From a virus: DNA of 37,669 bases. The DNA is taken from positions 1 through 37,669 of the IMG/VR virus record IMGVR_UViG_3300017769_000040; one strand, written 5' to 3'. Position 1 is the first letter of the stretch; each line of letters starts with the position of its first letter. Both the position numbers and the translations under genes were made by a program. This document shows positions 4,610 through 28,324 of this stretch, piece after piece. The notes below the pieces were generated by a model. That model saw nothing but the letters and a program-made list of their open reading frames with translations. It had not been told where the DNA came from and did not search any database.

Positions 4610-4691
4610 TGATTATGTTGTCTTAGCATCTGTTGTTTTCTCAACTCAGCTAAAGTCTTTTTGGACTTTTTTTTTGATGAGTCTGCTTCAT
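4606..4691 (-). other. Possible 28-codon gene interrupted at an A9 run (frameshift or sequence error)
   Basis: An ATG at 4691 overlaps the portal stop as ATGA. In frame zero the ORF stops after 13 codons (TAG, 4652-4650). At an A9 run (plus 4675-4667) a shift of -1, or one extra A, opens a second frame that reads KKSKKTLAELRKQQMLRQ and ends at TGA 4608-4606, overlapping the next gene's ATG as ATGA. The joined product would be 28 residues, very basic. Coupling at both ends argues that the shifted frame is real: either programmed slippage on A-AAA-AAA or a homopolymer miscall. Confidence 0.4.
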
Positions 4692-6778
4692 TTAGAACTT
4701 AATGGGTGTCCTTTAGGGAAAAGATCGTTGTCGTGTTTACCGCCTTGATGTCTGCCTGTTCTTAAGGCAAAAAGGAAACTGTTCACACGAGCATATGCCC
4801 AACGATCAGCTCCACCTTGCCTTCTTACTGCAGGTCTAACCGAACTGGGATTCGTATTGAAGGCTCCCACTCCCCTCTTGAAAACTGCCTCTAACATACG
4901 ACTTGTCGCTCTTTTTTTAGGATTGTCGCCATATTTTTCATTATGTTCCTCTACTTTATTTTTGAGTGCTTCTTTAACTTTGGCTGATACTTGTTTTGTA
5001 TCTTCAACCGAGTCAATCCACCAACCTTCTTCAAAAGGTAACTCTAAATCTTCAAGCCACTTTCTACCTTCAAGTTTTTTTGTGAGTTCAAGAATCACAT
5101 CTTTCATGCCTTGTTCGCCAAGAGTTCCTATTACACCCCATTTTAGTTGAGCTACTACTCCGCCTACATTAGACAAGTTAGGTTCTTTAGAACCATCTTT
5201 GAAAGCCTGACCATCTCGGAAATGCCTTGCTGCCCATGCTTCCCTTTCTTTTATCCATGATAGAACTGCAGGAGTTTCAGAGCCATCTCTAGCCCTACCC
5301 CATAAGACAAATGCTTCATTTCCCCTTATATTGCCACCTGCTTTCCATATTTGTTTACCAACACCTTCTTCCTTAGTATTTTTGGCAAACTCATAACTGA
5401 ATTGAGGATAGTTTGAATTTCTTAAGCTAATTTTTTTATTATCACCTGCTTTTGGGAAGTTTGTTAAATCATCGTCCTTAAGAAAATCTTCATATTCTTT
5501 CTCATCATCTTCTTCCAATGGATTTTCAGGTTCTTCTGGGGCTTCGCTACCGAGTGGGAATAAAGTTGCAGATATATAAATATCATCACCGCCATTTACT
5601 GGGGAGAGTCCTATGATCTCCCTTGCCTCGTTCCTTGTCATAATGCCTGCATTTACCGCAGAAGTTATGTTTTCGTAAGTTTTTCTTTTCCTTTCTGCTA
5701 ATGCAGGTATTGCGTCAACGTTATATTGAAAATCAAGAGAATCACTAAACATAGGCACAAGCCACTCGTTGAAGTCTGATTGTATAAGTTTCAGATGCGG
5801 AATGATTGTTTCTTCATACAAAGCTAATCTAGCCTCTGCCACATTTGAGTAAGTTTGATTATCAGGCACACCTACAAGCTGACTTGGCACTCCAAAACAA
5901 AGCGCAATGTCTGTTGCACTCATGTGCTTGAGATTGATAAAGTCCATATCTTTTGGTGATAGACCCATCTCTTTCCAATCAAAATCACCCTCTAGCAGCA
6001 TTGGTCTGCCTGCGTTACCTGTGCCAACGAATCTATTATTCAAATCGGTAAGCAGTTGTTGTCTTTGGCTTTCTGTGAGATTGACTGTGAAGCCCTGATC
6101 ATCTTTTGGTTTGAATATGACAGCACCACTTGGTCTAGCTCCATTATTCAAAAGATTTATGTTGTGCTTTGAAGAAAGATTATGTTGATCTACTTCAACT
6201 GCTGCTGCTTGCAGAGGTGAACACCCATAATAATCGTCAAGAGGATTCCATAGTTTGATATGTTTTAGATCAGAGAATCCTGTGTCTTGGTCAACATCAA
6301 AAACATCTTGCACTCTGCCATTTACTACATATTCATATCTTTGTGGAATAGGTTTACCACCGCCTTTGATTTGTATTCTGTCAGGTCTTAGTAAATGTAG
6401 CTCTCTAGGTGCACCTACATCTGATCCGACTTTTAAGACATAAGCATTCCCACTTAAAAGTAAGAAACCAAAAAGGCTGTTAAAGAACTCTGAGTATGAT
6501 TGTTGTGGGTTAGGTCTGTTCAGGAGATCAATCAATGGGTGTTGGTCTAATACTTGGTCACCTGCTTTTACCATGAAATTTACTGCACCTGCTCCTTTAG
6601 AAATTTCATTGACGCAACGAAAGACTATTGCGTTTTTCATGTAGCCTTCTTTTGCTAGGTCTTGATATTTATAATTTTTAGCATCTCCTGAGCCAACACC
6701 AAAATAACCGACCATGTTTGATTGCATGGATTTTTGCTGCGGTCTAAAAATATTTCTTATGTTATCTATTAATGCCAT
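4688..6778 (-). CDS. Portal protein, HK97 family, with a C-terminal extension of about 250 residues
   Basis: Forms the dodecameric DNA channel at one head vertex and the docking site for terminase and connectors. Residues 1-410 are a typical HK97/GTA portal: VFRCVNEIS, HPLIDLLNRPNP, FFNSLFGFLLLSGNAYV, LWNPLDDYYGCSPLQAA, LKHMSATDIALCFGVPSQLVG, and the C-terminal NAGIMTRNEAREIIGLSPV. An acidic linker follows (residues 412-440). The extension has two blocks: 450-575 (WIKEREAWAARHF, NVGGVVAQLKWGVIGTLGEQG) and 590-696 (KKRATSRMLEAVFKRGVGAF, DRWAYARVNSFLFALRTG, KHDNDLFPKGHPLSSK). Both look like domains recurring in marine phage proteins; the second resembles DUF5824, from memory. Usual portals end near residue 400-450. 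Confidence 0.92.
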   Translation of the reverse strand: MALIDNIRNIFRPQQKSMQSNMVGYFGVGSGDAKNYKYQDLAKEGYMKNAIVFRCVNEISKGAGAVNFMVKAGDQVLDQHPLIDLLNRPNPQQSYSEFFNSLFGFLLLSGNAYVLKVGSDVGAPRELHLLRPDRIQIKGGGKPIPQRYEYVVNGRVQDVFDVDQDTGFSDLKHIKLWNPLDDYYGCSPLQAAAVEVDQHNLSSKHNINLLNNGARPSGAVIFKPKDDQGFTVNLTESQRQQLLTDLNNRFVGTGNAGRPMLLEGDFDWKEMGLSPKDMDFINLKHMSATDIALCFGVPSQLVGVPDNQTYSNVAEARLALYEETIIPHLKLIQSDFNEWLVPMFSDSLDFQYNVDAIPALAERKRKTYENITSAVNAGIMTRNEAREIIGLSPVNGGDDIYISATLFPLGSEAPEEPENPLEEDDEKEYEDFLKDDDLTNFPKAGDNKKISLRNSNYPQFSYEFAKNTKEEGVGKQIWKAGGNIRGNEAFVLWGRARDGSETPAVLSWIKEREAWAARHFRDGQAFKDGSKEPNLSNVGGVVAQLKWGVIGTLGEQGMKDVILELTKKLEGRKWLEDLELPFEEGWWIDSVEDTKQVSAKVKEALKNKVEEHNEKYGDNPKKRATSRMLEAVFKRGVGAFNTNPSSVRPAVRRQGGADRWAYARVNSFLFALRTGRHQGGKHDNDLFPKGHPLSSK

Positions 6779-6787
6779 GATTACCTC

Positions 6788-8074
6788 TTAGCTTATCCTC
6801 CAATTTATCTCCCCCCTTGATTTGCTTAGTTCCGTTAAACCCCAAACTAAAGCATCTAATCTGTCTGGCGAAGGTTTCAATTGTCCTGTGAAAGTGCACA
6901 TTTGAGATTCTAATTCAGGAAAGACTCCCATGTGATGTACTCTTTCTTGCTCGTACAATGAGGCGATTGGCTCTGCTCTTACGATCTTCCCTCTGGTAGC
7001 TTGTACTGACCTATATGGAATATTAACATCAAAGTTACGCAAAAGTCTTTCCACAAGGTCACCGCCATTGTTTGTTTCTGCTACTATTTTATCAGCATTC
7101 CAATCATAAAACAGATTTATAGCTTTTCTTGCCCAATTGTCAGGTGTCATTTTCCCACTTGCATCTTCTAAAACATAAAATTGTTTTTTGCTATCTTTGC
7201 CAACTACCACGATGCCTGTTTCGTCTGAGTTTTCATTTGCAGTTACAGCAGGGTCAATGGCTACGATTATATCTGTAAGTTCTTGTTCTTTATTTTCACT
7301 TATCCTTGATTTTTCAATCATTGAAAGATTCCATAATGCACCATCAATTGATTCAATGACCTCTGCAAATAATTCCTGCCTACCTAAAGTCGTGCCTTCA
7401 TATCTTTCTTTGAGCATCTGCAAAGCAGACTCAGCTAAGTTTTCTTCATTCTCAAAAGTGCTGCCTCTTGTTACATGACAATCCTCTCTTTCAATCAAAT
7501 CTTTTATAAGTTTGGTGGGCTTTGGTGTGGTAGTGATTACACATTGAGGGTTTTTACCTAAACGCAGACCAAACATGAGCTGATCAAATGCTTCTGGATA
7601 TCGCCATGCAGCCAATTCATCACACCAAGCTCTATGAAACTGCGGTCCACGAAGTCTGTCTGGCTCTTGTGCTGCATATCCTGATATTTTTGAGCCATTG
7701 TGCAATCTAATTTCAGCTGTTGATGACGAGTAACCTTTATAATCTCTCGTTTTTGCATAGCACTCTTTTGGGATAATTGATATCAGACCGCTGTGTCCGC
7801 CAAAGCAGACTCTTCTTAAATCTCCATGAGTCGGAGCCACAACCGCACAATTCACATTAGGGTTTCTTAAAGCATACAAAGCGATGTCTTGTGCACCAGT
7901 TCTTGTCTTGCCCCAACCACGACCAGCTAGGATGAGCCATATATAAAATTGTTCCTCGGGAGAAACTTGTTTTGCTCTAGCTGTCTTTAGCCAATCAGTG
8001 TACAGAGCTATCGTCTGCTTGTTGCCTATCTCTTGCAACTGAGTCAAGCAATTCCATAGCTTCTCTGAAGGCAT
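6788..8074 (-). CDS. terL: Terminase large subunit (ATPase-nuclease)
   Basis: Packages DNA into the prohead and cuts it. The ATPase half shows Walker A AGRGWGKTRTG, a Walker B/acidic region RAWCDELAAW, and the coupling motif VITTTPKPT. The nuclease half shows IVAIDPAVT, DKIVAETNNGGD and PSPDRLDALVWGL, the three acidic sites of the RNase H-like domain. It closely follows GTA/HK97-type TerL. The frame opens at 8140 (TTG) inside the small subunit gene. In-frame ATGs are at 8095 and 8074, and TTGs at 8047 and 8038. I use 8074; all leave an overlap of 44-146 bases with terS, so the start is uncertain. Confidence 0.93.
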   Translation of the reverse strand: MPSEKLWNCLTQLQEIGNKQTIALYTDWLKTARAKQVSPEEQFYIWLILAGRGWGKTRTGAQDIALYALRNPNVNCAVVAPTHGDLRRVCFGGHSGLISIIPKECYAKTRDYKGYSSSTAEIRLHNGSKISGYAAQEPDRLRGPQFHRAWCDELAAWRYPEAFDQLMFGLRLGKNPQCVITTTPKPTKLIKDLIEREDCHVTRGSTFENEENLAESALQMLKERYEGTTLGRQELFAEVIESIDGALWNLSMIEKSRISENKEQELTDIIVAIDPAVTANENSDETGIVVVGKDSKKQFYVLEDASGKMTPDNWARKAINLFYDWNADKIVAETNNGGDLVERLLRNFDVNIPYRSVQATRGKIVRAEPIASLYEQERVHHMGVFPELESQMCTFTGQLKPSPDRLDALVWGLTELSKSRGEINWRIS

Positions 8075-8564
8075 TTTCTTCTGAGATGTTTGCATTAAGT
8101 TCCACTTTTTCTGTTGATTCTCCCAATGCCAGTTTGGCAAGTTTCTGAGCTGCTATTGCTGCATTGGCTAGTGCGTTTATTTGTGATGGTATAAAACTCT
8201 TTTTGCCATTGTTTATATCGTCTGTATTTTTTCTTAAGTTCTGACCAACTGTAGCCATAAGTGCCTTTGCTAAGTTGATAGAAGTGTTATCAAATTTCTT
8301 AGATTCTTCAGATAAGTTCTTTGCTCTTTCTTGGTCTAGTTTTTGAGTGTATTCCATTTGAAACTTTTCTCGTTCAACTTTCCAACTTTCTTTATTAGCT
8401 ACCCTGTATAAAGTTGATTTGGCGACCTTATGTTTTTTTGCTAATTCGTCTAAAGAGTAAGTGATTCTTGCCCCTGTATCATCAGACAAACCTTGAACAA
8501 ATTCATTCCTTATCTTTAGTTTGAGATGGTCTGTAAGTTTTTGAGATGTGCTTTTTTTACTCAT
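7995..8564 (-). CDS. terS: Terminase small subunit
   Basis: DNA-recognition subunit of the packaging motor. Residues 35-60 form a helix-turn-helix (YSLDELAKKHKVAKSTLYRVAN) of the kind at the front of phage small terminases. A long charged helix (residues 62-95) follows and then an Ala-rich oligomerisation region (INALANAAIAAQKLAKLALG). It is the first gene of the leftward late operon, with a predicted promoter and a 15-bp palindrome immediately upstream. Its 3' end overlaps the start of terL. Confidence 0.85.
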   Translation of the reverse strand: MSKKSTSQKLTDHLKLKIRNEFVQGLSDDTGARITYSLDELAKKHKVAKSTLYRVANKESWKVEREKFQMEYTQKLDQERAKNLSEESKKFDNTSINLAKALMATVGQNLRKNTDDINNGKKSFIPSQINALANAAIAAQKLAKLALGESTEKVELNANISEENAFREAMELLDSVARDRQQADDSSVH

Positions 8565-8579
8565 AAATTCTCAGAATTT
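8565..8579. promoter_or_regulatory. Palindromic operator candidate at the late transcription start
   Basis: AAATTCT-C-AGAATTT is a 7-bp perfect inverted repeat around one base. It lies between the predicted late -10 box and the terS ATG and would cover the transcription start. Its position suggests an operator for a repressor of late genes; the sequence is AT-rich, so chance is possible. Confidence 0.4.
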
Positions 8580-8584
8580 CCCAT

Positions 8585-8613
8585 AATATAATTCATAGTG
8601 CTGTCTATGTAAA
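8585..8613 (-). promoter_or_regulatory. Predicted leftward late promoter (terS operon)
   Basis: On the minus strand TTTACA (8613-8608), a 17-base spacer, then TATATT (8590-8585) gives a good sigma-70-type promoter. The predicted start, near 8578, leaves a very short leader before the terS ATG at 8564. It is the only candidate promoter upstream of the whole head block. Confidence 0.55.
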
Positions 8614-8635
8614 ACAAACTAATTTAATATTTATT

Positions 8636-8691
8636 CCGAAAAGGGTTGCTCTTTTTCTAAAAATAAGCGAGAATATAATTATATAAATTGA
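8636..8691 (+). promoter_or_regulatory. Early promoter motif, copy A
   Basis: The layout is CCGAAAAGGGTTG at 8636-8648, a CTTT-type -35 region, AAGCGAGAA, then a perfect TATAAT at 8674-8679 and ATAAATTGA at 8683-8691. The same arrangement, with equal spacing from the CC to the -10, recurs at 10855 and 21383. It drives the rightward early genes from 8704 and is divergent from the late promoter. Confidence 0.65.
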
Positions 8692-8703
8692 AGGTACTAT
8701 AAA

Positions 8704-8844
8704 ATGAAAGCTAAATTGATAACCCTTGAAGTCCGTTTCTGGAACTTCTTAGATCGTTTTAACTTAATTATAGGCATGCTTGTGTTTGCAGGTGGCTGCC
8801 ATACTTTCAATTATCTTTTAACTTTAATTAACGAGGTATTTTAA
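8704..8844 (+). CDS. Small single-pass membrane protein (46 aa)
   Basis: The ORF starts at ATG 8704, eight bases after a GAAGG ribosome-binding site in the first early transcript. It ends in TAA overlapping the next ATG (TAATG). The sequence has a charged N-terminus with aromatic residues (EVRFWNFLDRF) and then a hydrophobic segment (NLIIGMLVFAGGC... FNYLLTLI), giving one transmembrane helix with no cleavage site. As the first early gene it could act on the host membrane, for instance in superinfection exclusion, but no family is recognised. Confidence 0.6.
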   Translation: MKAKLITLEVRFWNFLDRFNLIIGMLVFAGGCHTFNYLLTLINEVF

Positions 8845-9122
8845 TGAGTATTTTAAATAAAAATGATGATGTGATGATTGAGGATAACTCTACATTGGAC
8901 TATTTCTATATAAAAGAGATGCGTCAAATTACAGAGTTCAATGCTAAAGGTAATCACTACTATCTGGAATTTATTATTTGGGAAGAAATGAAGTCTAAAT
9001 TAGATGGTTCTATTTCTAAGCATTACACCAAAGCAATAAAAAATTGGGATGGTAAAGAATCAACTAAATATGATGTTCTTAGCTCTTTGACTAACGAGCT
9101 TGAAGATAGGAGGTTAGCGTAA
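8844..9122 (+). CDS. Unknown early protein (92 aa)
   Basis: Not recognised. It is acidic with mixed charge and no Cys, signal peptide or membrane helix; the middle (NHYYLEFIIWEEMKS) suggests a small alpha/beta fold. Both junctions are coupled: TAATG with the upstream membrane protein and TAATG at 9120-9124 with the zinc-ribbon gene downstream. Its place in the first early operon suggests a host take-over or regulatory role, which is inference only. Confidence 0.6.
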   Translation: MSILNKNDDVMIEDNSTLDYFYIKEMRQITEFNAKGNHYYLEFIIWEEMKSKLDGSISKHYTKAIKNWDGKESTKYDVLSSLTNELEDRRLA

Positions 9123-9391
9123 TGGCAGGAGTACATGGTTCAGGGATTTGTCCTAATTGTAATAACCAAGATGCAGATGCATTTTGGGATAGCAGGAATG
9201 GAAATAAAATCTCTTGTAAAGAATGTGGTTATGATTCTGATTGGAATATGAGTGAGTCGGACAAGATGAAGATTCAGCTCAGGAAATTATCCAATAAAGG
9301 ATTATTTGAAGTTCATCATTTCATATCTGAAATGCTTGAGTATAGATTGGAGCAAGAAAAAAGGATTATTCAAAAAAGGGAGGAAGCATGA
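9122..9391 (+). CDS. Zinc-ribbon protein (89 aa)
   Basis: Two CxxC knuckles, CPNC near residues 10-13 and CKEC near residues 32-35, form a classic zinc ribbon (GICPNCNNQDADAFW... KISCKECGYDSDW). A helical, charged C-terminal half follows (EVHHFISEMLEYRLEQEKR). Such small ribbons in early phage operons usually bind nucleic acid or a host polymerase component. It overlaps both neighbours (TAATG upstream, ATGA downstream). The exact role is not known. Confidence 0.65.
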   Translation: MAGVHGSGICPNCNNQDADAFWDSRNGNKISCKECGYDSDWNMSESDKMKIQLRKLSNKGLFEVHHFISEMLEYRLEQEKRIIQKREEA

Positions 9392-12144: not shown

Positions 12145-13839
12145 ATGAATGAAAGACCAGAAGATCATGGGATCAAGCTGAGAAAGTTTGATCATGGAAC
12201 TCAAAAAGTAAAATGTCCTAAATGTCAGCCACCGCATAAGATGTCTGATAACCCATTGAGCGTAACCATCAATGAAGAAGGCACAGTATGGTTTTGCCAT
12301 CATTGTGACTGGAAAGGTAGTTATTTTACTAACAGTAACAAGATGTATATTCCAAAAGAAAAGGTATATCAAAAACCAGATGTTCCCAATAGTAATGCCA
12401 AAAATACTACTTACGAATATTTCAAGAATCGTGGCATTGGGGCTACTGTTGTAGATGAATTCAAAATATTTGAGGACAAAGGTTGGTATGGGTTCCAGTA
12501 CTTTGATGAGCATGAGCAAGTCTTAAATATTAAATACAGAAACAATGGAAAAAACTTTAGGCAAACACAGGGGGCTAAACCTTTTTTGTATAACTACAAC
12601 AAAGTAAAAGAAGCTGACGAGATAGTATTTGTTGAAGGAGAAATGGATGTGTTGAGCTGTGCAGAGATAGGTATGTTGGCTACAACTTTGCCTAATGGTG
12701 CACCTAAAGAAGCTAAGTTTAATGATAAAGATGCTAGATTCAATGCTTTGGAAAACTGTCCTTTAAATGCTAAGAAAGTTGTCCTTTTCACTGATACAGA
12801 TACCGCAGGAAAAGCCTTACATAAAGAGTTGCTACATCGTTTTGGCAAAGATGTTTGTTGGTATGTAAATGTGCCTGATGATTGTAAAGATGCTAACGAT
12901 GTTTTGGTAAAACATGGAGCAGCAAAACTAAAGAAAATCATAGATGATGCAATACCTTATCCGATTGATGGTCTTTATTCTGCCAACGATTACTATTCAC
13001 AGATTCAAGATTTGTACGATGGTAATTATGAAAAGCCAATTGAAATAGGATTAAAAGGATTAGACGAAATCTACAAAATAATGACTGGTACTTTTCATTG
13101 TATTACTGGCATACCTAATCATGGAAAATCTATATTTTTAGATCAAATATTATTGAATCTAGCTATCAATCATGATTGGAAGTTTGCAATCTTTTCTCCT
13201 GAACATTCAACCTCAATGCACATAAGACGATTGATACAGATGTATTGTCGTAAGCCATTTGATGAAGGCTTTGAAGAAAGGCTTGATAAAAAAGAATTAA
13301 ATCAGGCTTTGGAGTTTATCCAGAATCACTTCTACTTCATAGAAACAAGGGACAGTACTCCAACTGTAAACAACATATTAGATATCACTAAATCGTCAAT
13401 ATTTAAGCATGGGATAAATGGTTTAGTGATTGACCCTTACAACGAAGTTGATGCTAAAAGAGAGGGCAATGCAAGAGAAGATGAGCATATTAGAGATTTC
13501 ATATCTTTATGTAAAAGGTTTTCAAGGATTTACGAGATCGTTACATGGGTTGTGGCACACCCTACCAAATTGCCTAAAGGCAATGATGGTGGTTATACCC
13601 CACCAACAGCTTATGACATAAGTGGAGCAGCACATTGGCACAATCAGGCTGATGCAGTTCTTACTATACACAGGGATTTTGATGAAAACACCACAAGTGT
13701 AATAACTAGGAAAATTAGAGAACAGGATTTATATGGAAAGATTGGTGAAGCTAAATTTATGTATAACTTCAAAACAAGGAACTTTGACCCTTATACAAAA
13801 ATGGTTGTTGGTGATTGGGAAGAAAATGTCACTTGGTAA
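12145..13839 (+). CDS. Bifunctional DNA primase-helicase (564 aa)
   Basis: Primes and unwinds DNA at the phage fork. A zinc-binding module (C24, C27, C51, C54: KCPKC and FCHHC) is followed by a TOPRIM primase core (VFVEGEMDVL near 162-170, acidic LFTDTDTAG near 214-222). From about residue 300 comes a RecA-like DnaB/T7 gp4 helicase domain with Walker A GIPNHGKS (322-329) and later motifs (GLVIDPYNEVD, WVVAHPTKLP, DISGAAHWHNQADAVLTIHR). AGGAG precedes ATG 12145. The 3' end overlaps the convergent kinase gene by 11 bases, with no terminator between them. Confidence 0.92.
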   Translation: MNERPEDHGIKLRKFDHGTQKVKCPKCQPPHKMSDNPLSVTINEEGTVWFCHHCDWKGSYFTNSNKMYIPKEKVYQKPDVPNSNAKNTTYEYFKNRGIGATVVDEFKIFEDKGWYGFQYFDEHEQVLNIKYRNNGKNFRQTQGAKPFLYNYNKVKEADEIVFVEGEMDVLSCAEIGMLATTLPNGAPKEAKFNDKDARFNALENCPLNAKKVVLFTDTDTAGKALHKELLHRFGKDVCWYVNVPDDCKDANDVLVKHGAAKLKKIIDDAIPYPIDGLYSANDYYSQIQDLYDGNYEKPIEIGLKGLDEIYKIMTGTFHCITGIPNHGKSIFLDQILLNLAINHDWKFAIFSPEHSTSMHIRRLIQMYCRKPFDEGFEERLDKKELNQALEFIQNHFYFIETRDSTPTVNNILDITKSSIFKHGINGLVIDPYNEVDAKREGNAREDEHIRDFISLCKRFSRIYEIVTWVVAHPTKLPKGNDGGYTPPTAYDISGAAHWHNQADAVLTIHRDFDENTTSVITRKIREQDLYGKIGEAKFMYNFKTRNFDPYTKMVVGDWEENVTW

Positions 13840-14359
13840 ATTCAAATATATCGTTAGCTAGACTCTTTGATTCTTCTAAATCTCTTAGGGAAACTAACTC
13901 AATTATATTAGAAAGTTCTTTGTCCTCTTTTATGTTTTGTATTTTTGTGAGTCTGCCTTTCTTGAATTTTTCTGTTTGTTTGTCGCCTCTTTGTTCGTGT
14001 CTTTTATCTAATGTTGCAGCATCTCCTTCAAGAATTAAAATGCGGATATCGTAATCCTGATTTAGAAGTTTTAAGTTATTTGCAGTAAAAAGACGATCAC
14101 CTTCAAAGACAATGTTCTTATCACCCATTGCAACATAGGCTTCAAAGTCTTTTTGAACTGCCATAGATAATTTGTCTGTGCCTGCAAAGACTTCTCCTAA
14201 ATCGTATATACCTAATACGCTAGTTTCGCTTTCTGTATCGTGATAACCCCTCAATAAACCCTTTTGAAATTTTTTATTAGGCTTCAACAAAGACAAATAA
14301 TTCCTCATAAGGGTAGTTTTGCCAGAAGCAGGAACACCGCCAATTGCTACACATTTCAT
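13829..14359 (-). CDS. P-loop kinase of the DNA hypermodification module (176 aa)
   Basis: Walker A GGVPASGKTT (residues 7-16) opens a small nucleoside/polynucleotide kinase-like fold. Further conserved-looking segments are GIYDLGEVFAGTDKLSMAVQ, a strand ending NIVFEGDRLF, and a lid with Lys/Arg (DKRHEQRGDKQTEKFKKGR). In phage systems that make hypermodified thymine a kinase phosphorylates 5-hydroxymethyluracil in DNA; this protein, coupled by ATGA to the transferase gene, is the natural candidate here. That substrate is inferred from context. It is the last gene of the module. Confidence 0.8.
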   Translation of the reverse strand: MKCVAIGGVPASGKTTLMRNYLSLLKPNKKFQKGLLRGYHDTESETSVLGIYDLGEVFAGTDKLSMAVQKDFEAYVAMGDKNIVFEGDRLFTANNLKLLNQDYDIRILILEGDAATLDKRHEQRGDKQTEKFKKGRLTKIQNIKEDKELSNIIELVSLRDLEESKSLANDIFEFTK

Positions 14360-15330
14360 AATGTTTTGTAGTTTAAAGTGCCAGTATCTAAAAATACAGA
14401 AAATAAATCTTTTCTTATTTTTTTGCTTTCAGCTAACTTTGGGTGCAGTGTCTCCTCTCTACCATCCCAAAAGACTTGCCAATCAATCCCATTCCATTCA
14501 TCTTGTTCTACTTTCTTTATCTCCTCTGCCTGTCTATCTAAATAATATCCCAAATATCTACCATCTCTGTTTCGGAAGATTTTTTTGAAACTACAAAGCA
14601 AAGTTTCCATCATGTAAAAGTCTAGAGTTTTGCCATATTCTGCGTCCATTCTTTTTTGTATGAGTTTTGCTTCAATTTCAAGGTGTCTTATGCAGCTTTG
14701 ATCAAGTTTTTGGTTTACCCAATCATCTAAACCTAATGCATAACAAAGACCATTCCTATGTGATTTACTTCCGCTGTAATCAGACAATTTCAGGTCATTT
14801 GGATTGCATAGAAAACCTGCACAGTCCTTTAGTGTCTGCATGTAATACCAAGTGCTATATCTCCCAAATTTGTGCATATTCAAAGATATGAGTTGCCAGA
14901 CATACTCAAAAGACTTGTTCTCTAAACTTTTGAATTTTGCTCTTTGTGTGCCCTCTTGATTGTTATGCTTAATCCACTTCTTGTAAGAGGCAAACTGTTG
15001 TGGCAGATGTCCTTTGTTCCACTTGGTGTCTGTCTGATATCTTAGTCTTTGATAGTTTTGATCGTTCCATCTTTGCAACCTACCTTGATCAACCAACTCA
15101 AAGTCAGGGAACTCATTCCAAATTACCCAAGCAGTAGGTAAATGGTATGTCGTACCATAAAGCCAACAAACCCAATACTTTTGTTCTAGATTATGCTCGT
15201 ATCTATCAAAAAGATAATTTAATAACCACAATGCAGGGTCACAGTCCTTTTGCTCTAGCGACCAATCAGACCACTGCAAAAAAGCCTCTGTCCTATTTTC
15301 CTTTAAGCGTAAGTCAGTGAACATTTTCAA
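14356..15330 (-). CDS. Amino acid:DNA transferase / aGPT-PPlase-family base hypermodification enzyme (324 aa)
   Basis: The family was predicted as alpha-glutamyl/putrescinyl thymine pyrophosphorylases and linked to attaching an amine to a phosphorylated or pyrophosphorylated hydroxymethyl-pyrimidine in phage DNA. Recognisable parts are DPALWLLNYLFDRYEHN, YWVCWLYGTTYHLPTAWVIW, FPDFELVD, then RLRYQTDTKWNKGHLPQQF and a helical core (GRYSTWYYMQTLKDC, SHRNGLCYALGLDDW). The hallmark of the helical 5-hmdU kinase domain (WTxDPIL) is absent. Genes for a dioxygenase and a kinase in the same operon agree with the role. The clade within the family is uncertain. Its start at 15330 overlaps the GNAT end by 17 bases; ATG 15324 is also possible. 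Confidence 0.72.
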   Translation of the reverse strand: MKMFTDLRLKENRTEAFLQWSDWSLEQKDCDPALWLLNYLFDRYEHNLEQKYWVCWLYGTTYHLPTAWVIWNEFPDFELVDQGRLQRWNDQNYQRLRYQTDTKWNKGHLPQQFASYKKWIKHNNQEGTQRAKFKSLENKSFEYVWQLISLNMHKFGRYSTWYYMQTLKDCAGFLCNPNDLKLSDYSGSKSHRNGLCYALGLDDWVNQKLDQSCIRHLEIEAKLIQKRMDAEYGKTLDFYMMETLLCSFKKIFRNRDGRYLGYYLDRQAEEIKKVEQDEWNGIDWQVFWDGREETLHPKLAESKKIRKDLFSVFLDTGTLNYKTL

Positions 15331-15940
15331 AAAGGTATCTTCTAAGCCAAAACTCTTGAACTTTATTTATGGCTTCAAATGTTGCCATTAGTTTCTTCTC
15401 AGAAAGCGAAAGAAGCTCAAGATCCTCCTTTTTTAATTTCTCGCAAACCTTTTGTTCAGGTCTTACCAATGAAGGGTTAGTTTTTGCTTTATTCCTTAAT
15501 TCAATCTGTTTCTTCACGCTGCTCATTAAGGGTTGATCTGATCTTAAACTGCCTTGTTTATCAACAGACCAAAATACCAAGCCATTTTTAGCATGAAAGC
15601 CTATTGAATCAGGAGTGCAAGATAGTTTGATTCTTTGCATGCCTCTTTCAGACCAATATAAAACGAAATCAGACCATATCTTTCTGCCATATCCTTTGCC
15701 CTCTTGTCCTTGTACAGTAACGATCTCGTAAAGGTTTATATACTTTGTCCTTTCAGATGTAGTGGCGAAAATAAACGCAACTGGGATTTCATCAATCAAA
15801 AGAGTGAAAGGTGGATTCTTTTCATAATTTTTAAATCTTTTCCACAGGCTATGACTCGCTTTTAAAAAAGAAGTATTTTTACCTTTAGGCAACTCACTTA
15901 GAGTTTTTAAAACATAATCTTCATTCGCAAAAATATTCAT
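15314..15940 (-). CDS. GNAT-family acyltransferase of the hypermodification module (208 aa)
   Basis: The acetyl-CoA binding motif is EIVTVQGQEGKGYGRKIW (Q-x-x-G-x-G type), preceded by a strand-rich half (FTLLIDEIPVAFIFAT) and followed by a second strand (QRIKLSCTPDSIGFHAKNGLVFW), as in GNAT folds. A charged helical tail follows. The frame extends to 16015, but ATG 15940 overlaps the amidotransferase stop as ATGA and is preferred. In DNA-modification operons GNAT enzymes are thought to acylate the amine added to the base; here the substrate is inferred from context only. Confidence 0.75.
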   Translation of the reverse strand: MNIFANEDYVLKTLSELPKGKNTSFLKASHSLWKRFKNYEKNPPFTLLIDEIPVAFIFATTSERTKYINLYEIVTVQGQEGKGYGRKIWSDFVLYWSERGMQRIKLSCTPDSIGFHAKNGLVFWSVDKQGSLRSDQPLMSSVKKQIELRNKAKTNPSLVRPEQKVCEKLKKEDLELLSLSEKKLMATFEAINKVQEFWLRRYLFENVH

Positions 15941-16587
15941 GCTTGTAAATCTTCTAAAGAATCTCTTATTTTTGTAACCTTTAAAACAGTCTTTTCTGCA
16001 CAGTAATCTAAACAAGGTTCTGTCTTTTCATAGTCTGCTATACCACATCTTTCTAAAATATTTTTAGTTGAGCCGACTATCAATGTTTCTTCTAGTTTTG
16101 AGAAATATAAAGGTCGCTGCTCGTTCCTAAAAAAATTCAATGTGGGGCTTTTTTTGTTTGTTAATACCACGCAACTCATAGAGCCTTCTATGTTCAATGG
16201 ATGTATGCCTTTGAGCCAATGTAAAAGAAGTATCTCGCTATCGCACTTGGAACTAAACTTCATGTTGTACTTAGCTTCCCACTCACTTGGATCACTTTGA
16301 TCCACAACTCCATTATGTGCTAATGAAGTAGTCCCTTTATAAACAGGTTGATTGTAAAGTAAGTCTGATGTGCTGTACCTGCAATGAGCTATCAAGTTTT
16401 TGGTTCTAAAATCAGGTAGATCAAAAAGGTCAGCAGAATAAGGCACGATTTCATGTTTCAATTTTCCGTCCTCAATCCAACTTAGACCAGTAGCATGTTT
16501 ACCCCTTATCATGGATTTGAGGAGTATTTCTTTTACTAAAGATTTATCAATAAAGTTTTTAGATTGTAAGCCAACAACAGCACACAT
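15937..16587 (-). CDS. Class-II glutamine amidotransferase (Ntn-type), stand-alone (216 aa)
   Basis: Hydrolyses glutamine to supply ammonia, or transfers an amide. All class-II motifs are visible: catalytic Cys2 (MCAVVG), RGKHATGLSW, IAHCRYST, LAHNGVVD and CDSEILLLHW. The frame could start at GTG 16590, but ATG 16587 puts Cys at position 2, exposed after Met removal, as this enzyme class requires. No synthetase domain is fused, so the acceptor must be another protein. Coupling is TGATG with the dioxygenase gene and ATGA with the GNAT gene. The natural reading is a nitrogen donor or amide-processing step in base hypermodification. Confidence 0.85.
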   Translation of the reverse strand: MCAVVGLQSKNFIDKSLVKEILLKSMIRGKHATGLSWIEDGKLKHEIVPYSADLFDLPDFRTKNLIAHCRYSTSDLLYNQPVYKGTTSLAHNGVVDQSDPSEWEAKYNMKFSSKCDSEILLLHWLKGIHPLNIEGSMSCVVLTNKKSPTLNFFRNEQRPLYFSKLEETLIVGSTKNILERCGIADYEKTEPCLDYCAEKTVLKVTKIRDSLEDLQA

Positions 16588-17504
16588 CACAGACTCAAAC
16601 TGTCGCCTCTGTTTCTTGTTTGTGCTTTGAAAAGTTCCTCTTCAGCAGACTGACAGTGATGCATTTTTTCTCTGTAATAGCAGACAATTGACACTCTTTC
16701 ATATGCTAGTTTGGCTTTTATTTCTGTATTGGCGTGATATTCATGTACATTGAAAAAGCACACATCACCGCTTCTCACATCAAAAGCAACTCGGTATCTA
16801 GGTATAACAGTATATCCACCTTCGTATTTCCCTGCCTCTAATACAGCTAAGTTTCCTAAACCCTCTTTGTAATCTCCTGCATCTACATGCAAGGCGGTCC
16901 TAAAGTTTTTGTTTACTGTGATGGTCGTAAACACAGTATCTTTAATCAAGAAGTCTGCATTTGTTTGATCTGCCATGATTTTTTGTGCTTCATATTTTTC
17001 AGGACATGATTCTTTAAAAAGCTCGTTAATTTTATGTATGTAGGGATAGGCTTTTTTGAACTTATTAAAGTTTTTTTCATACCATGCAGTCTGTCTGCAA
17101 AAAGGGAATCTAGCATTCCTATCAAAAAAACCAACAATGCCTGAGTTCACTGTATTAGCTCTTGAAGTATTACTGAGTGTTCCGTCCTTTTTAATGCCTC
17201 TAAATCTTATTTTACTTAAATCCCCTATTTCCCAGTCGCTTTGGGTTTCATTACTGATAATACCGCCTGCACTACCACGATTGTTTGTGGGTGCTGCTGC
17301 ATCTCTTAAAGCTACATAAGCATCTTTACAAAGGTTAGTAGGTATTTTGTTTTTCCTAAAGAAGAATAAAGGCTCTCCATTTTCGCCATATGCATCACAA
17401 TCATCTCTGATTACAACATCATAATCAGATTCATCAATCCATTCTCCTTTCCTTTTGGCTACTTCTTCTTTTGTATAGTGTGGTTCTAAATTAAAAACCT
17501 TCAT
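16587..17504 (-). CDS. TET/JBP-family 2-oxoglutarate/Fe(II) dioxygenase (305 aa)
   Basis: Oxidises the methyl group of thymine or 5-methylcytosine in DNA. The catalytic core shows iron ligands H206 and D208 (RTALHVDAGD), a middle strand (AVLEAGKYEGGYTVIPRY, then VAFDVRSGDVCFF), the distal His H257 in YHANT and the 2-oxoglutarate Arg R270 in ERVSIVCYY. The last two match LHATT and TRISLVFY of human TET2, with similar His-to-Arg spacing. RGSAGG and FFDRNARFPFCRQTAW upstream also fit the family. TTG 17522 is an alternative start; ATG 17504 is the first ATG. No cytosine methyltransferase is seen, so thymine is the likelier substrate (inference). Confidence 0.87.
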   Translation of the reverse strand: MKVFNLEPHYTKEEVAKRKGEWIDESDYDVVIRDDCDAYGENGEPLFFFRKNKIPTNLCKDAYVALRDAAAPTNNRGSAGGIISNETQSDWEIGDLSKIRFRGIKKDGTLSNTSRANTVNSGIVGFFDRNARFPFCRQTAWYEKNFNKFKKAYPYIHKINELFKESCPEKYEAQKIMADQTNADFLIKDTVFTTITVNKNFRTALHVDAGDYKEGLGNLAVLEAGKYEGGYTVIPRYRVAFDVRSGDVCFFNVHEYHANTEIKAKLAYERVSIVCYYREKMHHCQSAEEELFKAQTRNRGDSLSL

Positions 17505-18117
17505 TTTTCGCTGTCTTTTCAACTGCTTCGTAAACAGTCTCAGTTAAATTTTCTTTAGACCATTTTTCTCTAAGGAAAGCTACCATGTCTTGAAACTTTG
17601 GCTCTGTTTCTTGATTCAAAAATATATTTACCATTCTCACATTACTGGTCTGTAAGTCATCAAATTGTGAGGTGTCAATATCGGTTACAATCTCCTCTGG
17701 CTCTGTGAACTCAATCATATCAGATGTCATTTTCTCAATTTCTTCAAACGAAAACCCTGTCTGATCAAGGTCATAATTGTGATCAGCAAGTTTGCCAAAC
17801 TCCTCAGCAAGAAGGTCATTATCCCACTCTGAGAAATCTTGGCTTTTGTTATCCATAATCCTGAAAGCAGTTTTTTGAGCCTCACTAAGTCCTTCTGCTT
17901 TGTGCACAGGTACTTGTTCAAACCCTAACAACTTGGCAGCCTTCAGTCTCGTATGTCCTGCTAGGATTACCATATCTTCATCAACGATTATAGGAACTCG
18001 CCAACCAACCTCTTTTATGCTCATAGCTACTTTTTCAATAGACTCTTTATTGTTTCTAGGGTTGTTGGGGTATTCTTGCAAATCCTCAACCTTCATCATT
18101 TTTGTGTTGTATGCCAT
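17491..18117 (-). CDS. ParB N-terminal-domain protein of the hypermodification module (208 aa)
   Basis: Residues 8-95 are a ParB/Srx-like domain: DLQEYPNNPRNNKESIEKVAMSI, then VPIIVDEDMVILAGHTRLKAAKLLG, where GHTRLKAA is the nucleotide-binding motif. The rest is acidic and helical (DNKSQDFSEWDNDLLAEEFG... FLREKWSKENLTETVYEAVEKT) and lacks ParB's HTH and dimerisation domains. Such stand-alone ParB domains recur beside phage DNA-modification genes, where they are suspected to guide or regulate the modifying enzymes; their reaction is not settled. Its end overlaps the dioxygenase start by 14 bases. Confidence 0.85.
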   Translation of the reverse strand: MAYNTKMMKVEDLQEYPNNPRNNKESIEKVAMSIKEVGWRVPIIVDEDMVILAGHTRLKAAKLLGFEQVPVHKAEGLSEAQKTAFRIMDNKSQDFSEWDNDLLAEEFGKLADHNYDLDQTGFSFEEIEKMTSDMIEFTEPEEIVTDIDTSQFDDLQTSNVRMVNIFLNQETEPKFQDMVAFLREKWSKENLTETVYEAVEKTAKNEGF

Positions 18118-18118
18118 A

Positions 18119-18325
18119 TTAATCTAAATAAAAATCGTTAGGTGTTACTAAGCCATCAGTGGCTTGGTATATTATATTTAATTCCTTTTTTCTTGGATAT
18201 CTTTGTTCTAAAAGATATTTAGCTAAAGTTCCTTGCGGAAACTTGTGACCAGTTTTTGACTCAGCACTTCTGATAAACAGGTTTTGTGTAAGTTTATTTG
18301 CTCTCAAATATTCTTTTAATTTCAT
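18119..18325 (-). CDS. Cro/CI-like helix-turn-helix regulator (68 aa)
   Basis: A compact HTH protein with the plan of Cro-type repressors: LKEYLRANKLTQNLFIRSAE for the first helices, a variable recognition region (FPQGTLAKYLLEQRYP), then a C-terminal IIYQATDGLVTPNDFYL, a signature of the Cro/CI family. It is the first gene of the leftward modification operon. Upstream are two overlapping divergent promoters with a palindrome, so autoregulation plus control of the rightward recombination operon is likely. No integrase was found, so a true lysogeny switch is unproven. Confidence 0.75.
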   Translation of the reverse strand: MKLKEYLRANKLTQNLFIRSAESKTGHKFPQGTLAKYLLEQRYPRKKELNIIYQATDGLVTPNDFYLD

Positions 18326-18357
18326 TTCTTATCTACAAAAAAAGGGTTAGAATTACT

Positions 18358-18405
18358 TTGTATTATTCCTTTTTGGGATTATACTAGACACACACTAAGT
18401 GTCAA
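18358..18405. promoter_or_regulatory. Overlapping face-to-face promoters (genetic switch)
   Basis: Minus strand: TTGACA (18405-18400), a 16-base spacer, TATAAT (18383-18378), a perfect sigma-70 consensus in both boxes, for the HTH-modification operon. Plus strand: TTGTAT (18358-18363), a 16-base spacer, TATACT (18380-18385), for the exonuclease operon. The two -10 boxes share four bases, so polymerase should occupy only one promoter at a time. Confidence 0.75.
18387..18403. promoter_or_regulatory. Operator candidate inside the switch
   Basis: ACACT-A-AGTGT (18392-18402) is a 5-bp palindrome around one base; the wider GACAC...GTGTC (18387-18391 and 18399-18403) also pairs. It touches the leftward -35 box and the start region of the rightward promoter, so a bound HTH dimer would affect both. 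A short one-base-centred palindrome suits a small Cro-like dimer. Confidence 0.5.
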
Positions 18406-18428
18406 TTGAACTAAAATGAGGTATTAAA

Positions 18429-21705: not shown

Positions 21706-22581
21706 ATGAAGAAAGACGAAGTATTTAAAAGGATAAGAGAGAAAATCTTAGAGCTGATGAAGAAAGAGGGTACAGACTGGACTAAGTCTTGGATTGCTAC
21801 TGCAACTCCTCTTAACTTCTTAAGCAAAAAAGACTACAGAGGCATCAATAACTTTTGGCTTTCTGTACAAGGCTTTGACTCAAATGAGTGGGGTACTTTC
21901 AAACAATGGCAGTCTAAAGGCTACCGCATCAAGAAAGGTTCTTCCGCTACTCCGATAATCTTTTCTGAGATGAGAGAAAAAACTCTAGACAGATTGTCCG
22001 ATGATGAAAAAGCTAGATACGAAGAAACAGGTGTAATGCCTAAGTTTTGGTTACTAAGAAGCTACAATGTTTTTAACGCTGACCAGATAGAGGCTTATGT
22101 AAGTGAAAATACTAAGGTTGATCATAAAGAAACTATCAGTTCTAAAGACTTAGAGGCAGTAATAAGGTTTATTGCTGCCACTAAAGCAGAGATCAAACAC
22201 GAAGGCGATAGAGCTTACTATCATCAAATATTAGATGAAATAACTATGCCTGTTAAAGAGAAATTCTTTTCTGATGAAGATTACTACTCTGTCTTATTGC
22301 ATGAGCTAACTCACTGGACTATGCACGAAGATAGAACCAACAGACAAGATAAAGACCTAAGTTATGCACAAGAAGAATTAGTAGCAGAGCTTGGTTCGGC
22401 TTTTCTTTGCAGATTGTTGAATGTTTCAAAAACAGTTAGACCAGATCACGCTAAGTATCTAAATAACTGGATTGAAGCGATTGAGGATAGCGAGAAAGCA
22501 ATGGTTCAAGCGTTTTCGGATGCACAAAAGGCGGTTGATTACTTAACCAAACTACAAACTAAAATGGAGAAGGCTGCATAA
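21706..22581 (+). CDS. ardC: ArdC-type antirestriction protein with zincin peptidase domain (291 aa)
   Basis: Protects incoming DNA from restriction. The N-terminal half is the ArdC single-strand DNA-binding domain (DWTKSWIA, DYRGINNFWLS, WGTFKQWQSKGYRIKKGSSATPI, FWLLRSYNVFNADQIE). The C-terminal half is a zincin metallopeptidase with H199-E200-x-x-H203 (LLHELTHWT) and the downstream Glu region (YAQEELVAELGSAF). Length is normal for ArdC. GGAG precedes the ATG. An intrinsic terminator overlaps the stop codon. With the base-modification operon it would give two anti-restriction layers. Confidence 0.88.
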   Translation: MKKDEVFKRIREKILELMKKEGTDWTKSWIATATPLNFLSKKDYRGINNFWLSVQGFDSNEWGTFKQWQSKGYRIKKGSSATPIIFSEMREKTLDRLSDDEKARYEETGVMPKFWLLRSYNVFNADQIEAYVSENTKVDHKETISSKDLEAVIRFIAATKAEIKHEGDRAYYHQILDEITMPVKEKFFSDEDYYSVLLHELTHWTMHEDRTNRQDKDLSYAQEELVAELGSAFLCRLLNVSKTVRPDHAKYLNNWIEAIEDSEKAMVQAFSDAQKAVDYLTKLQTKMEKAA

Positions 22582-24999: not shown

Positions 25000-26145
25000 T
25001 TATCCGCTTCCTTGTCTAATAACAATCGTAGACGCACTTCCACCATTGACCTTAACCTGATTGGCTACCCCATCTTGTTCTAAAATAACAGTATAAGAAT
25101 TGTTGCCATCAATAGTAATGTTGGCATTTGAACTTACTTCTCTTTTCATGCTTATTGATTGACCAGAAACAACAGTAGTAATTTGAGTACTGCTATCCTG
25201 CCCTACTGCTGTGCCTTTTATGTCTATTGCTGTAGCAACTTGTCTTATTTCATCTTCCTCTTCTATGGCATCTAATTCGTTGATAATATCTAGCAAATCC
25301 TCAAGGAAATTTACATTCAAAGCATCATAATCTAGCTCAGTAAATTCTAGTTCTTCTCCCTCAAGCTCATCTTCTGCTAATGCGTCATATTCAAGTTCAT
25401 CAAAATCTAATATGTCGCTTTGGCGTGAGTCAATAGCTTCCTCTTCACTTTCTTTTCTTTTGGGTGGGGAAACAATCAACATATTGTCAATAAAGTCTAA
25501 TGACAAATCTAAAATTACAGGGTCAGATGGTGGGCTTTCAAATGTTGTTGTTGTCGTTGCCTGATATGGCTTGTTAAGAATTACCTCTCCCAATGCTGTT
25601 GTGACTACTATTTCTCCTGATGATGTTCCATCAGGGTTTGGCAAAAGAATAAATAAACTTTCTCCTGTGTCTGCCTCTACTGTGACTGTGAAATCTGTAC
25701 CCCTGATTCCGACAGTCGCACTATTCGTCCTGAGAACCATATTTTTTTTGGGAACCGAACCTAATAAACCTGTTGTGAATCTTGCTGTACCTTTTACAAA
25801 ATTAAGGGCAAGTTTAGAATTGTCTGGGTTTGGGTCAAAGACAAACTCATCAATAATAACCTCTGAATGCTCTGTAATTTTGATAGTGGTATCGTCAACA
25901 AAACGAATACCCATACGACCTGATTCAGTCTGTGCTTTGTCATAAGATTGTATGCCAAAGTCAGTTATGACCTCATAGGGTTTTTCTCTTTCTATCTGTG
26001 CAAAACCAGAAACTTCTTCTACAGAACCAATATCAGCAACTTGTGGCTGTGCCTTGATCGTTTTGGATGATACAGAAAGTACCATTATCGCCGCTAGAAA
26101 TAACCCTGAGCCAATCGTTGTCCAATGTACTTGCTTGTGTAACAT
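25000..26145 (-). CDS. Secreted FecR-domain protein with acidic repeat and curlin-like end (381 aa)
   Basis: Signal peptide (HWTTIGSGLFLAAIMVLSVSS, likely cut near IKA-QP). FecR domain at about residues 38-190: EEVSGFAQIER, DDTTIKITEHSEVIIDEFVF, KGTARFTTGLLG, then LRTNSATVGIRGTDFTV. Next comes an acidic region near 230-300 with two related units (DELEYDAL and TELDYDAL). The C-terminal 60 residues read like curlin repeats (NITIDGNNSYTVILEQDGV, ANQVKVNG). Unusually, the first 113 bases lie inside the upstream curlin-like gene. FecR domains usually sense or fold beta-rich exported material; here it may guard or anchor the secreted repeat protein. Confidence 0.8.
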   Translation of the reverse strand: MLHKQVHWTTIGSGLFLAAIMVLSVSSKTIKAQPQVADIGSVEEVSGFAQIEREKPYEVITDFGIQSYDKAQTESGRMGIRFVDDTTIKITEHSEVIIDEFVFDPNPDNSKLALNFVKGTARFTTGLLGSVPKKNMVLRTNSATVGIRGTDFTVTVEADTGESLFILLPNPDGTSSGEIVVTTALGEVILNKPYQATTTTTFESPPSDPVILDLSLDFIDNMLIVSPPKRKESEEEAIDSRQSDILDFDELEYDALAEDELEGEELEFTELDYDALNVNFLEDLLDIINELDAIEEEDEIRQVATAIDIKGTAVGQDSSTQITTVVSGQSISMKREVSSNANITIDGNNSYTVILEQDGVANQVKVNGGSASTIVIRQGSG

Positions 26146-27993: not shown

Positions 27994-28324
27994 CTCTTTC
28001 TGCCTTTGCAATCTTTTCACGTTGAACTAAGTTAGGTACACCTAACATTGTTTTTAGCAATGTATCTTGTCTGATAATTTCATTATCTACACTTCTCACT
28101 CTATCAATAAGCGATACCAATATACCATGTTGGGCATCTAATTTTGACTGCAACCTATCTTCCATAGCTTTCAATTGTTCGTTCACCTTATCATCAACCA
28201 CATCTATTTTAGACTCCATACCATCTATAATTCTATTGATAAGTTTCCAAACAAATATTCCCAAACCTAAAGCAGCAGCAACAGGGAAACCCAGTTCTGT
28301 AATTAGTCTTACTATATCGTCCAT
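27974..28324 (-). CDS. Holin-like membrane protein, BhlA/UviB type (116 aa)
   Basis: One N-terminal transmembrane helix (FPVAAALGLGIFVWKLI) and then an amphipathic/coiled-coil region (SKIDVVDDKVNEQLKAMEDR, AQHGILVSLIDRVRS) and a charged tail, the layout of BhlA/UviB-like holins. The late operon has endolysin and spanins downstream but no other holin candidate. The function is inferred from topology and place; the helix could also serve a tail or curli-cassette role. Confidence 0.6.
   Translation of the reverse strand: MDDIVRLITELGFPVAAALGLGIFVWKLINRIIDGMESKIDVVDDKVNEQLKAMEDRLQSKLDAQHGILVSLIDRVRSVDNEIIRQDTLLKTMLGVPNLVQREKIAKAERDDQRKD

Follow-up and report, generated by a model that had tools for sequence, protein, structure and literature searches.

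A TET/JBP-centred operon of a marine virus, predicted to hypermodify a pyrimidine, most likely thymine, in phage DNA, and its exchangeable tailoring cassette

Organisation and conservation of the operon

The stretch of DNA analysed here (the window, 37,669 nt in full) is a nearly complete siphovirus genome of about 38 kb from a marine bacterial virus, whose terminase and capsid match, at less than 60% identity, those of phages of mixed hosts. Two scans of genome contigs with the amino acid:DNA transferase (ADDT) revealed no host or prophage relatives. Seven ORFs running from 18325 to 13829 on the minus strand form an operon (Table 1). The preliminary description had listed these genes in the same order and as mostly overlapping; all the ORFs were confirmed, and overlaps of 14, 1, 4, 11 and 4 nt were found at five of the six junctions, the HTH and ParB genes being separated by a 1-nt gap. 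The start codons of four genes were refined, to ATG at 17504 (TET/JBP), 16587 (GATase), 15940 (GNAT) and 15324 (ADDT). The divergent intergenic region upstream of the HTH gene is presumed to be the operon promoter.

Table 1. Genes and other features of the operon region in the window
Feature	Coordinates	Strand	Evidence and remarks
Small HTH-like protein, 68 aa, operon gene 1	18119..18325	-	ORF; dN/dS 0.16
ParB N-terminal-domain protein, 208 aa	17491..18117	-	PF02195 (ParB_N) 2.1e-8; dN/dS 0.03
TET/JBP 2-oxoglutarate/Fe(II) dioxygenase, 305 aa from ATG	16587..17504	-	Tet_JBP PF12851 6.1e-25
Stand-alone class-II (Ntn) glutamine amidotransferase/glutaminase domain (GATase), 216 aa	15937..16587	-	GATase_6 PF13522 5.1e-9
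'Long' GNAT N-acyltransferase, 208 aa	15314..15940	-	Exchangeable tailoring cassette; PF00583 in family
ADDT (amino acid:DNA transferase, aGPT-PPlase-type), 322 aa from ATG	14356..15324	-	PF18724 9e-17, over cut-off
P-loop kinase, 176 aa, Ploopntkinase3 family	13829..14359	-	Walker A GVPASGKTT; dN/dS 0.05
Recombinant exchange segment	14581..16200	-	GATase 3' end, whole GNAT, ADDT 5' two thirds; flanks ~88-99% identical to sister genome
Divergent intergenic region, 103 bp	18326..18428	.	Between operon (-) and PD-(D/E)XK exonuclease gene (+); gene coordinates

The order ParB-TET-GATase-GNAT-ADDT-kinase is repeated in dozens of viral contigs, which are fragments of uncertified completeness. Among the 40 ADDT loci with room upstream, TET was found in 39 and GATase in all, while the kinase directly follows ADDT in 72 of 72 testable loci; the HTH gene keeps the first position in close relatives (e.g., L008, L009, L012 and L018). 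The dN/dS values calculated against a sister genome for six operon genes were in the range of 0.02–0.16, and the genes are thus under purifying selection. Given this recurrent gene order and the low dN/dS values, the operon is not a chance assembly.

Predicted functions of the encoded proteins

Each family named in the preliminary description for which a profile exists (ParB, TET/JBP, GATase, GNAT, ADDT and P-loop kinase) was recovered by profile or fold, and the dioxygenase and the transferase, for which placement in unrelated families had been considered, fall within Tet_JBP and ADDT with the E-values given in Table 1. The HTH-like protein, a probable regulator, had no family match in profile searches. 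The ParB protein, which matches phrog_620 (1.2e-50) and phrog_498 (DNA methyltransferase with ParB; 3e-44), is a probable DNA-binding or targeting partner.

The TET/JBP protein contains the HxD...H iron triad and a downstream Arg, matching the double-stranded beta-helix profile, and its profile search extends to human TET2 structures (2.4e-5). The residues singled out previously, H206, D208, H257 and R270 (numbered from the ATG), are invariant across 16 homologues. The predicted activity is oxidation of the 5-methyl group of a DNA pyrimidine. The PHROG labels 'queuine tRNA-ribosyltransferase' for this protein and 'terminase small subunit' for the kinase were discarded as annotation noise.

In the GATase, the Cys2 nucleophile and the motifs RYST, HNG and DSE were identified, Cys being residue 2 because the ATG at 16587 lies one codon inside a GTG. 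A start-adjacent Cys is present in 53 of 54 distinct homologues, the remaining one being truncated by a contig end, and RYST and HNG in all 54. No partner synthetase was found in the window operon, and such a stand-alone GATase is unusual; some relatives carry an amidoligase partner. The ammonia released by GATase may be passed to ADDT. Neither ADDT nor GATase had a solved relative in a PDB sequence search.

ADDT matches phrog_3271 (1e-47), and its homologues occur in hundreds of phages, including those of Salmonella (myoviruses), Vibrio and Mycobacterium. The window kinase alone gave a P-loop AAA_33 match under the Pfam cut-off (2e-4), while its family matches PF18751 (Ploopntkinase3; best member 2.1e-13), and EGDRL and other motifs are invariant among relatives. 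It is a predicted 5-hydroxymethylpyrimidine DNA kinase; 5hmdU DNA kinase activity has been experimentally established in the thymidine hypermodification pathway (PMC6449724, PMC7653180). The window GNAT alone likewise scored just under the cut-off (Acetyltransf_1, 8e-4), while PF00583 was recovered in 15 of 16 family members (best 6e-7). Its AF2 model (pLDDT 95) was matched by Foldseek with probability 1.0 to RimI/Ard1/SpeG/GCN5-type acetyltransferases, and on this model the protein has the GNAT fold.

An exchange cassette between GATase and ADDT

Beyond what had been described before, the central part of the operon proved to be an exchange cassette, to which many relatives add an amidoligase of the GS/GCS fold. 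In the sister genome L086, about 95% identical to the window, an amidoligase and a different, short GNAT replace the long GNAT. Sliding identity between the two genomes is 92–99% down to position 16201 and 88–97% from 14580 on; inside the segment it falls to 75%, homology is then absent over GNAT, and identity is 58–77% for 15330–14581. Across relatives, the slot between GATase and ADDT holds the long GNAT, the amidoligase with the short GNAT (as in L008), or the amidoligase with a low-molecular-weight phosphatase. Trees with good support show at least five cassette swaps. No earlier description of cassette exchange between near-identical genomes was found in the literature.

The amidoligase, a gene of relatives that is not in the window, matched PF12224 in 11 of 16 members (best 3.3e-7); the best Foldseek matches of its AF2 model (pLDDT 92.5) were glutathione and glutamine synthetases, with probability up to 0.98 and E-values >1e-3. 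Together these place it in Amidoligase_2, as a GS/GCS-fold carboxylate-amine ligase. In 49 loci of the window type, GATase and its catalytic Cys are kept and the amidoligase is absent.

The swapping of the middle genes suggests that near-identical sister viruses vary the final decoration of their DNA. In the pair L033/L035, different cassettes stand beside near-identical ADDT and kinase genes (98% DNA identity), a pattern which suggests that an intermediate is shared between cassettes. ADDT specificity could nevertheless differ between cassettes, since most of ADDT is also divergent in the window–L086 pair.

The substrate base

The earlier proposal of a 5-substituted pyrimidine stands, but its two candidate starting bases no longer appear equal: thymine is favoured over 5-methylcytosine. 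A search for cytosine C5-methyltransferases (PF00145) gave no match in the window, in about 50 viral contigs of relatives or in four isolate records, while the positive control, phage Melnitz, gave a match at 2e-56 beside its TET and kinase genes. No dUMP-hydroxymethylase/thymidylate synthase-type gene (PF00303) over the cut-off was present in the window and about 50 related contigs, and Thy1 and DNA_pol_A were absent from the window and 14 related contigs. A thymidylate synthase candidate at 8844–9122 (16 bits; 13 bits for the match at 8910–9110) was sub-threshold, had no phrog hit and was judged to be due to chance. The failure to find either gene type in the window or its relatives makes thymine the likely substrate, as does the comparison with Melnitz, a methyltransferase-TET-kinase relative whose methyltransferase gene has stayed adjacent. 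Oxidation of host-made 5-methylcytosine would also be compatible with the lack of a C5-methyltransferase gene.

The relative L089 retains the ParB-TET-...-kinase arrangement, carries an FAD oxidoreductase and has an ADDT similar to the one in Pseudomonas phages M6, YuA and PaMx11, which ties the TET frame to thymidine-hypermodification enzymes; M6 DNA contains 5-aminoethyl-dU (PMC6449724).

Proposed pathway and alternative readings

We propose, with a probability of about 0.72, that the operon makes a hypermodified pyrimidine in finished phage DNA, most likely a thymine derivative, and that the cassette varies the finish. The ParB-like protein would help to recruit the enzymes to phage DNA, where TET/JBP would hydroxylate the thymine methyl group to give 5-hydroxymethyluracil. 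The P-loop kinase would then phosphorylate, and so activate, the hydroxymethyl group, ADDT would displace the phosphate with an amine, and GNAT would acylate the installed amine. The comparative evidence favours these four chemical steps after replication, which had been suggested before. GATase would release ammonia from glutamine; its acceptor is our guess, either ADDT, yielding a 5-aminomethyl base, or the carboxylate of an installed amino acid. Depending on the cassette, related phages would probably attach different final groups to a shared intermediate, and the product would protect the DNA from host nucleases.

The second option for ammonia is a sub-version of the proposed pathway and does not exclude it: ADDT would install an amino acid, GATase, with the amidoligase where present, would amidate its free carboxylate, GNAT would acetylate its amine, and no ammonia would go to ADDT. 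Characterised thymidine ADDTs reportedly use amino acids (Lee et al. in 2022), which is consistent with this chemistry, as are the adjacency of GATase to a GS/GCS-fold amidoligase in cassettes with that gene and the comparable pair annotated in phage LUZ24. Glutaminase-domain ligases in carboxymethylcytosine hypermodification (PMC12783734) point the same way. However, the 49 loci that keep the GATase Cys contain no known ligase to use ammonia for amidation, because the amidoligase is absent, and we regard this version as tentative, below even odds. Slightly more doubtful is a combined scenario in which the TET-started thymine pathway passes glutaminase ammonia to ADDT to form 5-aminomethyluracil and the swapped cassettes vary the DNA surface in a serotype-like manner within one population.

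An unlikely alternative to thymine modification is that the phage TET oxidises host-made 5-methylcytosine, with kinase, ADDT and GNAT building on 5hmC. A TET/kinase pair does exist in a cytosine context: a single stretch of Melnitz encodes a C5-methyltransferase, TET and a homologous kinase, the last two separated by a 427-aa protein of unassigned family. A phage TET was also reportedly shown to act in cytosine hypermodification by Burke et al. in 2021, which we count towards this alternative. Cytosine-based hypermodification with a ParBc-domain context and ligases was described in 2025 (PMC12783734). Against it stand the failure to find a C5-methyltransferase in the window and in about 50 contigs of relatives, the presence here of ADDT, which the searched part of Melnitz lacks, and the combination of the TET frame with an M6/YuA-type ADDT in L089. 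Finally, a non-DNA target (a metabolite, tRNA or cell-surface polymer) is very improbable: GATase, amidoligase and GNAT alone do occur in phage pathways of unclear target (LUZ24), but an operon that unites TET/JBP, ADDT, ParB and a kinase of the hypermodification type indicates DNA, as do the ADDT homologues of hundreds of phages, Salmonella myoviruses among them, the characterised thymidine-hypermodified phage ViI being itself a Salmonella phage (PMC6449724).

Comparison with known systems

If the proposed thymine pathway is correct, a new thymine derivative would be made without altering nucleotide pools, by a TET/JBP enzyme acting on thymine itself. Elsewhere in this family, thymine oxidation is known from the JBP of kinetoplastids. 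That near-identical genomes have repeatedly exchanged their finishing enzymes suggests that modification-sensing defences of hosts select for varied DNA chemistry, and the matched pairs window/L086 and L033/L035 could be used to work out the contribution of each cassette. The enzymes could become tools to write amines, amides and acyl groups onto DNA.

TET/JBP-centred base modification systems were reportedly predicted by comparative genomics by Iyer et al. in 2013. The window operon resembles these systems and that of Burke et al. in using TET/JBP for the first oxidation step of phage DNA modification, but the cytosine systems have a C5-methyltransferase nearby, as in Melnitz, and none was found in the window group. 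Systems combining TET, ADDT and kinase have already been predicted or annotated; in Rhodococcus equi phage Tonitrus, a putative thymidine hypermodification (THM) system of five genes is annotated with a ParB-like domain, a TET-like protein, aGPT-Pplase2 and a 5-hmU DNA kinase, while GATase and GNAT are unlisted and the fifth gene is hypothetical (PMC11955845). What is new here is the exchange of cassettes in the slot that separates GATase from ADDT.

The THM pathways of M6, ViI and phiW-14 likewise employ a kinase and an ADDT-family transferase, recognised by PF18724, on a 5-hydroxymethylpyrimidine intermediate. In these phages, however, 5hmdU is reportedly built into DNA first and phosphorylated afterwards (PMC6449724), whereas no thymidylate synthase-type gene was found in the window and its TET/JBP is predicted to form the hydroxymethyl group once the DNA is complete; GATase, and in relatives the amidoligase, are further additions. 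Since no PF00303 match exceeded the cut-off, the operon is a THM variant and not a plain member. The CmoX/CmoY carboxymethylcytosine pathway shares the ParBc context and glutaminase-domain ligases proposed to use glutamine-derived ammonia, but relies on a cytosine C5-carboxymethyltransferase and an AMP-forming ligase, and the accessible part of its description mentions no TET, ADDT or kinase (PMC12783734).

L079 was rejected as a case of a TET-free pathway: no TET gene lies within 10 kb, but the contig covers just part of a larger phage. Among cultured relatives, HTVC112P has the arrangement ParB-TET-FkbM, and Cr30 carries a thymidylate-synthase-family gene and is therefore unsuited to telling the TET route apart from the nucleotide route. 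TAGT-like glycosyltransferases are encoded near some relatives (L076 and Cr30), so the relatives do not all share one chemistry.

Genome and Operon Organisation

The virus record, 37,669 bases long and of siphovirus-type gene content, was interpreted as a circularly permuted genome close to full length, although no repeat is common to its two ends; some gene roles in the genome map were assigned by eye. The seven-gene operon of the preliminary description is the sole minus-strand block amid the plus-strand early genes. All seven ORFs were confirmed, with refined start codons, and neighbouring genes overlap at five of the six junctions (14, 1, 4, 11, and 4 nt). Profile searches recovered the families proposed there, namely ParB_N, Tet_JBP, GATase_6 (class-II glutamine amidotransferase, GATase), GNAT, amino acid:DNA transferase (ADDT), and P-loop kinase; the GNAT and kinase matches were sub-threshold for the window protein alone and firm across relatives, and the predicted model of the window GNAT has an N-acetyltransferase fold. 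The iron triad and 2-oxoglutarate arginine assigned to the dioxygenase are invariant in 16 homologues, and the TET profile reached human TET2 (2.4e-5). Since the HTH-like protein had no family match in profile searches, its role as a regulator is a guess. Comparison with the sister genome L086 indicated purifying selection on the six operon genes compared (dN/dS 0.02–0.16). We infer a marine phage because, among cultured phages, Pelagibacter phage HTVC112P has the closest TET; this inference does not draw on sample metadata.

Features of the window and of related viral contigs
Feature	Contig	Position	Strand
HTH-like, ParB, TET, GATase, GNAT, ADDT, kinase	Window	18325–13829	−
Terminase, portal, prohead protease, capsid	Window	left end	−
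Head–tail connection, tape measure, tail genes	Window	reading on from right end	−
Early genes	Window		+
Primase-helicase	Window	12145–13839	+
ArdC-type protein	Window	21706–22581	+
CsgG (2.9e-49); CsgF (1.7e-18); late region	Window	26727–27575; 27481–28020	−
Repeat-rich protein without family match; FecR-domain protein	Window	25000–26145; 26033–26734	−
Third cassette type (amidoligase, low-molecular-weight phosphatase-like)	L024	1142–1567	
Third cassette type	L076	4442–4861, 4861–5640	
ParB-TET, larger GATase-like gene	L093	3319–6805	
ParB-TET, larger GATase-like gene	L095	2779–5862	
ParB-TET, FkbM-type methyltransferase	L002 (HTVC112P)	6973–9195	
Methyltransferase, TET, 427-aa protein, kinase	L098 (Melnitz-3)	4010–8090	

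Conservation and Cassette Exchange

Scanning viral contigs with ADDT yielded 103 relatives, of which 80 loci were retained. Among the 40 loci with at least 4.5 kb available upstream, GATase was present in 40, TET and GNAT in 39 each, and ParB in 33, while the kinase occurred in all 72 ADDT loci with downstream room. Gene order is fixed in nearly all ADDT loci; in L076 TET follows the kinase, and this locus additionally carries a TET-associated glycosyltransferase. Another TET-GATase arrangement occurs in contigs L093 and L095, where the larger GATase-like gene lies about 0.9–1.1 kb beyond ParB-TET and no ADDT or kinase was found.

The genes between GATase and ADDT vary. The long GNAT is present in 49 loci lacking gene X, whereas in 23 loci (some overlapping on one contig) GATase precedes gene X (~290 aa) and a distinct GNAT of shorter length; one locus, L081, combines gene X with a divergent long-type GNAT, and two combine it with a low-molecular-weight phosphatase-like gene (L024, PF01451, 1.3e-15; L076, by eye). 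Gene X belongs to Amidoligase_2 (best match 3.3e-7), with a predicted GS/GCS-type fold. The window and L086 share ~89–96% identity over most of ~20 kb; along window positions 16200–14581 identity is 75%, absent across GNAT, then 58–77%, before returning to about 90%. The same swap separates L033 and L035, whose ADDT and kinase are 97–99% identical, and two further pairs (L038/L039 and L015/L040) have the same breakpoints at lower identity. By a quick method, the cassette label changes seven times on trees of TET+GATase and ADDT+kinase, well-supported branches forcing at least six and at least five changes, respectively. These breakpoints and forced changes indicate recurrent exchange of the finishing enzymes at a single slot, apparently through recombination within the genes on either side.

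TET/JBP-based systems were reportedly predicted earlier by Iyer et al. in 2013. In phage Tonitrus, ParB, TET-like, aGPT-Pplase2, and kinase genes were annotated as a thymidine-hypermodification system (PMC11955845). Relative to that kind of system, the window's type is a variant with added GATase and GNAT or amidoligase, is widespread in viral contigs, and shows recurrent cassette exchange. No earlier description of the exchange was found in the literature searched, which did not extend to the most relevant papers.

Probable Modified Base and Proposed Pathway

Searches of the window and about 50 related viral contigs, several of them short fragments, gave no match over cut-off to PF00145 (C5-cytosine methyltransferase) or PF00303 (thymidylate synthase/dUMP hydroxymethylase). 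As a positive control, the PF00145 search did detect the methyltransferase of phage Melnitz, which lies next to TET and kinase. The related locus L089 keeps HTH-ParB-TET and kinase, and between them carries an FAD oxidoreductase and an ADDT matching those of Pseudomonas M6/YuA/PaMx11-type phages; M6 DNA contains 5-(2-aminoethyl)dU, made via phosphorylated 5hmdU (PMC6449724). Together, these data favour oxidation of thymine in finished DNA, although 5mC made by the host may be the TET substrate. The window encodes a primase-helicase, and no DNA polymerase of family A, the family searched for, was found in it or in 14 relatives, suggesting that the host polymerase copies the phage DNA and that modification is post-replicative. 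A candidate cytosine version of the pathway is present in Methylophilales phage Melnitz-3, where a C5-methyltransferase, TET, a 427-aa protein of no known family, and a homologous kinase are consecutive.

With thymine as substrate, the best reading is that TET would oxidise it to 5hmU, the kinase would convert this to phospho-hmU, ADDT would yield an amine-bearing U, and GNAT would acylate the product. The GATase catalytic Cys is kept with or without amidoligase; for loci of the window's class, another acceptor of GATase-derived ammonia would therefore be needed, ADDT being the most economical choice. A parallel is known in tRNA, where MnmEG is described as making nm5U or cmnm5U from ammonium or glycine (PMC3936742). 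Because a nearly identical ADDT accompanies both cassettes in L033/L035, a common intermediate finished differently by each cassette is suggested; against this counts the window/L086 pair, in which most of ADDT was exchanged along with the cassette.

Other Genes and Relatives

The window also encodes CsgG and CsgF, curli secretion-channel proteins, followed by repeat-rich and FecR-domain proteins. An ArdC-type anti-restriction protein with a zincin-like metallopeptidase domain is likely a second anti-restriction function. In the cultured phage HTVC112P, ParB-TET is followed by an FkbM-type methyltransferase replacing kinase/ADDT, possibly performing O-methylation of a hydroxymethyl base. The lab-grown Caulobacter phage Cr30 (L100) carries TET, ADDT (1.3e-52), a protein with weak TAGT similarity, kinase, and a member of the thymidylate synthase family, and probably has unusual bases; its TET is labelled 'SNF2 DNA repair protein' in public records and its kinase 'terminase small subunit' in one.
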